Positions 33,234 through 60,069 of a stretch of DNA of 64,000 nt are shown here, one piece after another; position 1 is the stretch's first letter; every line of letters starts with the position of its first letter. The notes beneath the pieces are model-generated. The model was not told the origin of the DNA. It did not search any database and saw only the letters and a list, made by a program, of their open reading frames with translations. The stretch covers positions 62,001 to 126,000 of the forward strand of contig NZ_VCHA01000003.1 in the NCBI RefSeq assembly GCF_016597815.1, given 5' to 3'. Source of the DNA: Marinobacter sp. DY40_1A1 (GTDB lineage: Bacteria; Pseudomonadota; Gammaproteobacteria; Pseudomonadales; Oleiphilaceae). Both the position numbers and the translations under genes were made by a program.

Positions 33234-33310
<77 letters not shown>

Positions 33311-57909: not shown

Positions 57910-58749
57910 TTAAGAACCCATTACCCGGAAACGGACTTCATAACCGGTGAACTTGCGAATATTGATCACCCCGGTGTCGAGAATCAGGTATTGGCCTTTG
58001 ATACCTTCAAGAACCCCCTCCACTTCCGGTGTTTTATCCAGGTTATGAGTCTTGATTTTTTCGGGCCAGGTCTGCACGGGGTAACTGAGCTCGAGCCCCT
58101 GCTCGCCCACCTCGCGAATGGAGTCCTGTCCGTGCTCTTCACGCAGCGCGGCAAGATCGCCGGCAATCAATGCCAGTATCCGCTCTCGTTCTTGCACAAG
58201 GTCCAGCTCCGTAACATCCCCCCTGAGCATGGCACGCCAGTTCGTGCGATCGGCCACATGCTCCTTGCAAGCCACTTCAACAAGGCCCGAAAGATACCGG
58301 GTAGCCACCCTCAGCATGGGAATTGCATCCACCGCCCCCTGATCAATCCAGCGTGTTGGCACCTGGGAGCCACGGGTTATGCCGACTTTAAGGCCTGATG
58401 AGTTGGCCAGGTACACCACATGCTCAATCATGCAATGGGTTTCACCCCATTCTGGCTCACGACAGGTGCCCAGATGATAATGGCACTTCTCAGGACTCAT
58501 AATGCAACTGTCGCACGCCGCCAACTTTCGGAAACAGGGGTAGCAAAACCCCTGATTAAAGCTCTTTTTGGTGGTTCGGTCGCAGTTAATGCAACGTATG
58601 AGACCGTCATAGTCGAAGCGCAAGGGCTTGCCTATAAGTTCATTCATTGCCACCCGGGCATCGCCGATCGCGAGAATATAGGACACAGGGTCGCCAGCTT
58701 CTGCGGGCATTTTTCTGAGTCGCCCGGTTACATCCGTAAGATCACTCAA
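57910..58749 (-). CDS. DUF2797 family zinc-finger protein
   Basis: A 279-residue cytosolic protein of family DUF2797. A Cys-rich block (RCINCDRTTKKSFNQGFCYP, CFRKLAACDSCIMSPEKCHY) holds several C-x-x-C pairs likely to bind zinc, then ARCREPEWGETHC-type sequence (GTCREPEWGETHCMIEHVVY) and LKVGITRGSQVPTRWIDQGA, the family core. That last segment resembles a GIY-YIG-like start in pattern (inference). Its ATG overlaps the yeaC stop by 4 bp (58746-58749). Function unknown; the yeaC-DUF2797-pepN order is common in Pseudomonas-like genomes. Confidence 0.92.
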   Translation of the reverse strand: MSDLTDVTGRLRKMPAEAGDPVSYILAIGDARVAMNELIGKPLRFDYDGLIRCINCDRTTKKSFNQGFCYPCFRKLAACDSCIMSPEKCHYHLGTCREPEWGETHCMIEHVVYLANSSGLKVGITRGSQVPTRWIDQGAVDAIPMLRVATRYLSGLVEVACKEHVADRTNWRAMLRGDVTELDLVQERERILALIAGDLAALREEHGQDSIREVGEQGLELSYPVQTWPEKIKTHNLDKTPEVEGVLEGIKGQYLILDTGVINIRKFTGYEVRFRVMGS

Positions 58750-59039
58750 GACTTGACCTCAACAAACTGATTGGGATCGACGTTGTTCCCGCCTGGCTGA
58801 TTGCGACGCACTGAAGGGTCACATGCAGTGCCGGCTTTGGCTCCACGATCAAGATATCCCACACGCTCCTGCTCAGGGATGCTATGCAGATTTTCGTAGT
58901 AGATGACGGCTTCCAAGCTTATCTCTCGCTGTTTCGGGGTTAGCTTGCGACCATCCGGCCACTTTCCCAGCTCAATAGACTGCTTCAGGTTTTGATAAAC
59001 GTTGGGATCGAGCCGCTCAATAAGTTCTTCGTAAGTCAT
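58746..59039 (-). CDS. yeaC: YeaC family protein (DUF1315)
   Basis: A 97-residue soluble protein of the YeaC/DUF1315 family: TYEELIERLDPNVYQNLKQS, ELGKWPDGRKLTPKQREISL, EAVIYYENLHSIPEQERVGY. AGGAG stands 6 nt before the ATG. First gene of the unit with DUF2797 and probably pepN. A Fur box lies 60 bp upstream, overlapping a plus-strand promoter that faces away from it; whether Fur also controls yeaC cannot be settled by eye. Confidence 0.92.
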   Translation of the reverse strand: MTYEELIERLDPNVYQNLKQSIELGKWPDGRKLTPKQREISLEAVIYYENLHSIPEQERVGYLDRGAKAGTACDPSVRRNQPGGNNVDPNQFVEVKS

Positions 59040-59083
59040 CCGGTTCTCCTGAAAAAACCTTCATGAAAAAGTCGAGTAATCGT

Positions 59084-59113
59084 TTGACAGATGCAAACGA
59101 TAATGATTATCAT
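59084..59113 (+). promoter_or_regulatory. Sigma-70 promoter of the candidate small RNA
   Basis: A perfect -35 TTGACA (59084-59089), an 18-bp spacer and -10 TATCAT (59108-59113, five of six). It points to the right, away from yeaC, predicting a transcription start near 59119-59121 exactly where the first RNA hairpin begins. Confidence 0.75.
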
Positions 59114-59117
59114 TGCC
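59099..59117. promoter_or_regulatory. Fur box
   Basis: GATAATGATTATCATTGCC matches the 19-bp Fur consensus GATAATGATWATCATTATC at the first 16 positions and again at position 19 (17 of 19). It covers the spacer and -10 element of the plus-strand promoter, the ideal place for iron-dependent repression. Confidence 0.88.
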
Positions 59118-59119
59118 TC

Positions 59120-59207
59120 GCCAAATGACGACGGTCGTATCATTTGGTCTCTCTCATCAGAGGCATATTCTGCTTCTTTTATACCCCACCTCTGGTGGGG
59201 TTTTTTT
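59120..59207 (+). ncRNA. Candidate Fur-repressed small regulatory RNA (about 88 nt)
   Basis: Between yeaC and the rhomboid gene a complete small-RNA unit is visible on the plus strand. It has the promoter 59084-59113 under a Fur box. A 5' hairpin pairs CCAAATG (59121-59127) with CATTTGG (59141-59147), extended by ACGA/TCGT around loop CGG. An unstructured pyrimidine-rich linker (59148-59182, with TCTCTCTCATCAG and TTCTGCTTCTTTTATA) follows, then a Rho-independent terminator (59183-59207). There is no credible reading frame. The layout matches RyhB/PrrF iron-sparing RNAs, though the sequence does not obviously match them. Target pairing through the TCTCTCTC tract to GAGAG-type ribosome sites is inference. 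Confidence 0.7.
59183..59207 (+). terminator. Terminator of the candidate small RNA
   Basis: ACCCCACC, loop TCT, GGTGGGGT and a run of seven T. The T-run faces right, so it serves a plus-strand transcript; the only plus-strand promoter nearby is that at 59084. It overlaps the last two bases of the rhomboid gene, which runs the other way. Confidence 0.92.
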
Positions 59208-60069
59208 ATGCTTTCCGATTGTTGCGAGCAGGCAGAATGGCAGCCAGGGCCAAGCCAGCGACGAACCCTCCCAAATGCGCTTCGTTTGCCATGCGCCCCA
59301 AGCCCAGCATTTCCGGTAAAGAGGTAAACCCGATCACCATCCACACCACGGCAAAGGTTACCAGTGCAGACGGGAACTGGAATCTGGGCAGCGCTCTCTG
59401 ACTCAACCAGCAGTATCCCAGAATGCCATACACGACCCCGGAAAGGCCGCCAAAGAACGGCCCGGACACCACGTACTGCAACCCGTTGGACAACAAACTG
59501 GTGACAATAAAAATCAAAACCAGCCGGCCACGGCCATCAAACCACTCCACCTGGCTTCCCAGAAACCACAGCATTACGGAATTGAAAATAATGTGAGTCC
59601 AGCTGAAATGCAGGAAGTCAGGAGTGAACAGCCTCCAGACCTGACCACTGGCAAGGGTTGCCGACAAGGCATCGAGCCGCTCAGCCATGGTGCCCCAGTC
59701 GTAGGCCCGCGGGTCTACAATTAACAAGCTGGCAGTGAGCTGATTACTGCCCAGGCTGGTAAGCCAGGCCATCAACACACCCAGCACAATGATACCAAGC
59801 ACCAAAGGCGCATGGCGGGGGGACGGCTGCCACCGCCCTGCCACAAACACAGGCGAATGATTCTGGCGCTCAACAGCCTGACGGATATCCGGCTCGGCGA
59901 GGAATCGTTCCAGAGCTTCGAGAACCGGCTCGGCGTGCTCTGGATGCTCCAGCCACAACACCTGGAAACCACCTTCTTCACTGATTCTGTGGGGAACTCC
60001 CTGGCTCCTTAGCCACTGGCTGAACCCGCCAAGGTCTAAACTGGCATCTAACTGCTTTACTCGGTACAC
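59206..60069 (-). CDS. Rhomboid family intramembrane serine protease
   Basis: A 287-residue GlpG-like rhomboid. A cytosolic N-terminal domain (about 1-85) is followed by six TM helices. Catalytic features: the HFSWTHIIFNSVMLWFLG helix, the serine in FFGGLSGVVYGILGY (about 208) and the histidine in ANEAHLGGFVAGLAL (about 262). It cuts membrane proteins within the bilayer. The start is ATG 60069 with no strong ribosome site. It lies 50 bp after the metallophosphatase gene on the same strand. Confidence 0.94.
   Translation of the reverse strand: MYRVKQLDASLDLGGFSQWLRSQGVPHRISEEGGFQVLWLEHPEHAEPVLEALERFLAEPDIRQAVERQNHSPVFVAGRWQPSPRHAPLVLGIIVLGVLMAWLTSLGSNQLTASLLIVDPRAYDWGTMAERLDALSATLASGQVWRLFTPDFLHFSWTHIIFNSVMLWFLGSQVEWFDGRGRLVLIFIVTSLLSNGLQYVVSGPFFGGLSGVVYGILGYCWLSQRALPRFQFPSALVTFAVVWMVIGFTSLPEMLGLGRMANEAHLGGFVAGLALAAILPARNNRKA

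Follow-up and report, generated by a model that had tools for sequence, protein, structure and literature searches.

A conserved, predicted Fur-box small RNA gene beside yeaC in Marinobacter and its probable kinship with Pseudomonas PrrF

RyhB of enterobacteria is repressed by Fur and lowers the level of iron proteins, and RNAs of the IsrR, HrrF and NrrF type make up an iron-sparing functional class. In Pseudomonas the corresponding RNAs are PrrF1 and PrrF2, which combine a Fur box over the promoter, a 5' hairpin, a CUCAUCAG core and a terminator. According to one account, PrrF was originally found through a Fur box together with a terminator and is not homologous to RyhB in sequence (PMC4211561); in another, PrrF complementarity overlaps the Shine-Dalgarno sequence and start of brnD (PMC13104616). 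Here we examine a 64 kb window, the whole 64,000-nt stretch of Marinobacter sp. DY40_1A1 DNA that was analysed, in which a short intergenic element very probably represents a stand-alone gene for a Fur-controlled, iron-sparing small RNA of about 88 nt that is distantly related to the PrrF RNAs known from Pseudomonas.

The element lies in a 166-nt gap (59040-59205) between a yeaC-like gene (DUF1315; 58746-59039; Pfam PF07023, E 1.8e-25) and a rhomboid protease gene (59206-60069, its start codon as listed mechanically; PF01694, E 7.1e-29), both on the minus strand. On the plus strand, a -35 element TTGACA (59084-59089) and a -10 element TATCAT (59108-59113) are separated by an 18-nt spacer and together match 11 of 12 consensus positions. 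A Fur box overlapping the spacer and the -10 (59099-59117, plus strand) agrees with the Fur 19-mer at 17 of 19 positions and is the only match with three or fewer mismatches in the window, where shuffles lead one to expect 0.01. A first-pass annotation had described the gap with its minus-strand neighbours, the promoter and the Fur box in these terms, and all three descriptions held when recomputed. Simple scans for promoters (2 found versus a mean of 0.9 in shuffles) and for terminators (2 versus 1.7) barely exceed chance; it is conservation that carries the case for a gene. The only match in the window at the Rfam gathering level is a tRNA (33234-33307, plus strand).

The predicted transcript, whose +1 is placed from the promoter, runs from 59120 to 59208 on the plus strand and folds into three hairpins at -32.2 kcal/mol. 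Shuffles average -16.7 (z -5.84), and not one in 200 reaches so low an energy. Hairpin 1 (59120-59148) is built on CCAAATG/CATTTGG within 59121-59147 and is extended outwards by a G-U pair between 59120 and 59148. It is followed by the segment CUCUCUCAUC (59149-59158), unpaired in the fold, by hairpin 2 (59159-59177), and by an intrinsic terminator with a T run (59183-59207), whose 8-pair stem spans 59183-59201. The 5' hairpin at the predicted +1 and the 8-bp terminator stem with its T run had both been seen in the first pass and reappear in the fold. The open pyrimidine-rich linker proposed there survives only at 59149-59158, because the rest is taken up by hairpin 2, which that annotation had not recognized. 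We propose UCUCUCUCAUCAG (59148-59160, plus strand) as the pairing seed, on the grounds of its invariance, its open fold and its kinship to the PrrF core; within it, 59150-59160 reads UCUCUCAUCAG and is identical in 67 of 67 distinct sequences.

Conservation of promoter, hairpin and terminator in related species, which had been named as one test of the proposal, was found: a strong match to the 127-nt element (E at most 1.1e-7) is carried by 120 of 124 Marinobacter genomes. Genome G021 retains only the terminator and some hairpin remnants, the sRNA gene having been deleted; in G067 a contig ends at the element's place, in G076 the copy is cut by a contig end, and G064, which is 62% complete, has no strong match. 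For the alignments, a yeaC-neighbour protein search kept 80 of 176 named loci, one of which (L093) starts inside yeaC, and 72 of the other 79 gave a parsed element at most 260 nt upstream of yeaC; the locus-by-locus comparison of gene neighbours covered the yeaC side. Locus L104 carries the element by eye and by model R2 (defined below); its seed runs across the end of the 260-nt stretch, which is why it went unparsed. In six loci no element was found within 260 nt upstream of yeaC; one (L092) is the deleted copy, and the others (L105, L106, L108, L109 and L110) lie outside Marinobacter by title. The promoter and Fur box were compared in 73 sequences (the window and 72 loci) and the structure in 67 distinct ones (the window and 66 loci, the distant L107 left out). 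Judged from these alignments, the predicted Fur-box sRNA gene is real and genus-wide.

In the 73-sequence alignment, TTGACA is kept in 67 sequences, TATCAT or TATTAT in all 73 and the 18-nt spacing in 71, while 72 match the Fur 19-mer at 15 or more of 19 positions. These figures bear on whether the box instead serves the minus-strand yeaC operon, with the plus-strand hairpins as terminators or by-products. The box is indeed a palindrome, placed 60-78 nt upstream of where yeaC begins, yet it is locked to the plus-strand -35 and -10, and an invariant seed and covarying hairpins extend beyond it, outside any yeaC leader. Control of yeaC alone was rejected on this alignment evidence and is in our estimate very improbable; the Fur box may, for all that, control both the sRNA and yeaC.

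The fold of the predicted sRNA is likewise maintained across the 67 sequences. Standard pairs occupy 94.8% of cells, while slid controls are at most 51.9% paired; since the structure tested is the window's own fold, this percentage is favoured, and the changes on both sides of a pair are the stronger part of the evidence. Such changes occur in 7 pairs, compared with 3.8 in shuffles, of which 3 in 500 have as many; for the covariation score, 0.147 compared with 0.103, none of 500 is as high. They are found in all three hairpins: one pair in hairpin 1 (where 97.6% of main-stem and 83.2% of upper-stem cells are paired), two in hairpin 2 (91.6%) and four in the terminator (98.5%). The same alignment speaks to the notion of a short plus-strand protein-coding gene, for which open frames do exist; single-base length differences among relatives, in the hairpin 1 loop and the linkers, break any frame, whereas the seed letters are invariant. 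A coding gene was rejected on account of these frame-breaking differences, and we give it next to no credence.

How, then, is this RNA related to those already described? When 351 bases were scanned permissively against Rfam, the highest bit score went to PrrF (RF00444; 28.6 bits, full length, E 0.0049), far short of its gathering cut-off of 90 bits; anti-hemB scored fewer bits (24.0) yet had the better E-value (0.0014). RyhB (RF00057) gave 17.9 bits against a cut-off of 55 (E 0.69), with no similarity beyond chance; RyhB is like the present RNA in presumed regulatory logic only. Down to E 10 the scan gave 13 Rfam matches, none of them IsrR, HrrF or NrrF, and the likeness to them is one of functional class alone. 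Across the genus, with E allowed up to 1, the PrrF model matches 72 of 124 genomes and finds nothing in 52; this locus is the best match in 70 of those 72, and none of the 124 genomes reaches 90 bits, the genus maximum being 47.2. At the same threshold it also matches 3 of 14 control genomes, each time below the cut-off. In the 293 genomes of the order, searched at E up to 0.1, 58 have matches and 12 of these exceed the cut-off, compared with 0 of the 14 controls. PrrF-like loci at about 50-84 bits occur in many genomes of the order (families f2, f7, f16, f34, f36, f37 and f38), below the 90-bit limit, from which it appears that PrrF is probably under-annotated outside Pseudomonas-type genomes.

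The reverse comparison was made with two models of the Marinobacter RNA. The transcript-only model R1, which lacks the promoter, scores 95.2 bits at 59120-59208, the window being one of its training sequences. At E up to 0.1 it has matches, for the most part weak ones, in 124 of the 293 genomes; most of these weak matches are probably chance, and only coincidence with PrrF places was counted. Among 132 matches listed outside the window's family, 23 places in 16 genomes coincide with PrrF places (98 rows were computed and the other 34, none of which coincides, were compared by eye), including PrrF places in at least 7 of the 12 genomes with over-cut-off PrrF. Because R1 and the PrrF model both contain a terminator, model R2 was built without promoter or terminator. 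R2 still matches the PrrF position in 7 of 30 PrrF loci, at E from 0.00035 to 0.13: L161 (five tandem copies), L168 (three), L141, L144, L169, L170 and L155. At L157, L158 and L160 it matches near PrrF on the opposite strand, and at the other 20 of the 30 it has no match or one elsewhere. R2 also matches upstream of yeaC in two Oleiphilaceae MAG loci outside Marinobacter, L104 (E 1.1e-6) and L107 (E 4e-5). In L161 (G373:C3), all in one genome belonging to the same order, the five tandem PrrF-like RNAs are matched at 997-1038, 1299-1340, 1576-1617, 1853-1894 and 2130-2171; the Marinobacter-type seed UCUCUCUCAUCA is seen in three aligned copies and one that was read, and the rest score alike.

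R2 finds PrrF loci because there are intermediates in which a Marinobacter-type seed is linked to what remains of the PrrF core. L161 and L169 carry UCUCUCUCAUCAAGCUAAUCACGGUU, where the PrrF remainder follows on the Marinobacter seed, and L170 has this arrangement with ACUCUCUCAUCA, whereas the over-cut-off PrrF loci carry cores of the UAUCUCCUCAUCAGGCUAAUCACGG type. The first-pass annotation had found no core pairing segment of PrrF or RyhB here; for PrrF this must be revised, as a variant is present, UCUCUCUCAUCAG(G), nearly invariant in the genus, in place of UAUCUCCUCAUCAGG. The two seeds differ on the 5' side, UCUCUCU in Marinobacter and UAUCUCC in PrrF. Downstream, the second PrrF core part GCUAAUCACGGUU is absent from the Marinobacter RNA, which has a covarying hairpin instead; this small hairpin replaces the PrrF segment GCUAAUCACGG. 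The Marinobacter RNA is also short, at about 88 nt, the PrrF model having 150 positions with the promoter included. Shared with PrrF are the Fur box overlapping a sigma-70 promoter, present in Marinobacter by sequence match, the 5' hairpin, the CUCAUCAG core, the terminator, a predicted pairing with iron-protein mRNAs around their starts and, in at least one Marinobacter genome (G121), a tandem pair. In that genome, locus L475 (G121:C4:50400-51500) holds two copies of the element separated by 233 nt, both having a promoter and a Fur box of their own, an arrangement that resembles prrF1-prrF2 of Pseudomonas.

These similarities could in principle have arisen twice, in that a Fur-regulated sRNA analogous to PrrF and RyhB evolved independently and shares CUCAUCAG since both bind Shine-Dalgarno regions. 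Seeds resembling an anti-Shine-Dalgarno sequence could converge, no PrrF score in the genus reaches the Rfam cut-off and GCUAAUCACGG is missing. Yet the order of parts is identical to that of PrrF, intermediates have the Marinobacter-type seed followed by AGCUAAUCACGGUU, and the R2 matches at 7 of 30 PrrF loci and the 23 coinciding R1 places likewise speak against separate origins; we consider independent origin unlikely. Since the cut-off and the second core part set the RNA apart, it is, on these sequence comparisons, a divergent relative of PrrF that should not be filed as RF00444. The covariance-model search proposed in the first pass has yielded a reciprocal link to PrrF, below the cut-off, and for RyhB no match beyond chance. 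Descent from a PrrF-type ancestor would have kept the promoter-Fur layout and the CUCAUCAG core and changed the 5' side of the seed.

By analogy, a mode of action can be suggested. When iron is plentiful, Fur-Fe bound to the box over the -10 would block transcription, and when iron is short the RNA would be made. Its open seed UCUCUCUCAUCAG could then pair, presumably with the help of Hfq, with segments of the CUGAUGRGAGAG type over the Shine-Dalgarno sequence or start codon of iron-protein mRNAs, which would block translation and probably speed up decay. Fewer iron-using proteins would be made and iron would be spared.

Genus-wide, the target side of this scheme was searched as TGATGRGAGAG with an ATG 3-12 nt downstream, which has matches in 116 of 124 genomes. 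Most of the rows listed are the RNA gene's own antisense; there are 57 other sites among the matches listed (G001-G102), and 30 of these qualify as gene starts by a rule, set after the table had been seen, that calls for an open frame of at least 50 amino acids from the site, longer than any frame through it. By Pfam name alone, 21 of the 30 are iron proteins: Rieske (7), radical SAM/4Fe-4S (5), HiPIP (3), 2Fe-2S (3), rubredoxin (2) and di-haem peroxidase (1). Two PhoX, one FA_desaturase-type protein and one phosphogluconate dehydratase, which we take from general biochemistry to be iron proteins as well, bring the iron-type total to 25 of 30. The FA_desaturase-type protein, which had no NCBIfam match, is in our own reading a putative alkane-monooxygenase-like enzyme, and one radical SAM protein scanned against NCBIfam was closest to NirJ (500.5 bits against a cut-off of 515.45, for a truncated sequence). 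The remaining five (TetR, zinc dehydrogenase, ABC permease, SutA-like and one without a family) are unexplained, and a 4Fe-4S ferredoxin (L356) that failed the gene-start rule was left out of the count. Many of these matches are orthologous, and counted by family there are 9 iron and 5 other, for which p is about 1e-6 if the iron fraction is assumed to be a tenth and 4e-4 if a fifth. In the same 124 genomes, two control patterns that kept the Shine-Dalgarno part and permuted the 5' letters gave 16 and 14 matches, with 3 (FHIPEP, FliE and one without a family) and 0 passing the gene-start rule and iron-type proteins in 0 of 3 and 0 of 0; the reversed pattern gave 7 matches.

In the window's own genome, the seed complement CTGATGAGAGAGA has 74 matches with at most two mismatches, one being the RNA gene itself, compared with 29 for the reversed pattern, a weak control given how often CTGATG occurs in coding DNA. 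A mechanical screen for nearby starts covered all 74, and 14 were read. PetA, the Rieske subunit, has the complement with one mismatch 19 nt before its ATG. Other sites at plausible starts belong to a protein with cytochrome c and d1 domains that we read as a likely NirS, a CysI-type sulfite reductase hemoprotein and PrpB (methylisocitrate lyase), and there are also non-iron sites, at Tsf, LpxA and phasin, that are unexplained. Duplex scores are circular for genes picked by their complementarity and were not counted for these; in the leader shuffle test only sodB and sdhC had been chosen without regard to pairing. The sodB leader has an 11-nt match, and its duplex gives z -3.2 and p 0.007 when the leader itself is shuffled; against random 90-nt windows the duplex is not outstanding (-17.0 versus a mean of -13.5, sd 3.0). 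Of 16 sodB leaders from the genus, 10 contain an uninterrupted pairing run of at least 8 nt, at a different place within the leader in one case, and the other 6 a run of only 7 nt. The leader of sdhC, a textbook target, is GA-rich but gave no signal (z 0.0 against its own shuffles), and with a shorter RNA core neither sodB nor sdhC was separated from random windows. Non-iron leaders also score in the duplex shuffles (lpxA, p 0.008; tsf, p 0.043).

The negative result for sdhC and some of the non-iron matches would suit an RNA whose main job is something other than iron sparing, such as protein sequestration or a single narrow target. With 25 of 30 gene-start matches of iron type and a Fur box in place, such a role appears quite improbable, and the Marinobacter RNA is most likely an iron-sparing regulator, as far as sequence can tell. 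The idea in the first pass of a functional analogue of RyhB and PrrF, perhaps without similarity to either, is thus sustained as to function by conservation, structure and target-side enrichment, and is not supported as to a lack of similarity to PrrF, given the variant core and the intermediates. If correct, this provides an iron-sparing regulator with concrete predicted targets for a genus in an iron-poor habitat. The intermediates between PrrF and its re-seeded relative would moreover make the evolution of an sRNA seed traceable, together with its targets, across one bacterial order. No description of the RNA was found among the best-ranked open-access papers on PrrF and those on Marinobacter sRNAs and iron; the accessible text of PMC8233155 mentions no such RNA, and the one mention of Marinobacter met in an open-access PrrF paper is a petrobactin reference. 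The RNA is thus probably undescribed so far.

Marinobacter is a genus noted for breaking down hydrocarbons in the sea and for its biofilms on electrodes. The complementarity-based candidates PetA (bc1 Rieske), HiPIP, rubredoxin, NirJ, NirS and the alkane-monooxygenase-like enzyme prompt a more speculative reading, to which we incline less than to its opposite: that this is a re-seeded PrrF lineage whose seed and targets changed together after the split from Pseudomonas, and whose regulon shifted to electron transfer, denitrification and alkane oxidation, so that iron shortage would directly halt hydrocarbon use and nitrite respiration.

The petA site lends itself to closer inspection. In 30 of 30 genomes examined, of 124, the motif at -19 is CTGATGGGAGA (29) or CAGATGGGAGA (1), and the sequence upstream is more variable than the motif itself. 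The motif also persists in G021, whose RNA gene is destroyed, so that selection on it need not come from the RNA. This genome (loci L473 and L092), in which the terminator adjoins yeaC and the petA target-like motif remains, amounts to a natural knock-out. In genome G097 (L476), the loop of hairpin 1 is enlarged and hairpin 2 is altered, and the element matches in G049 and G074 are as long as that in G097. A common PetA start, MKNGDVSH, is found in G097, G049, G074, G021 and G067, which suggests that these five genomes may form one clade where the RNA is undergoing change or loss.
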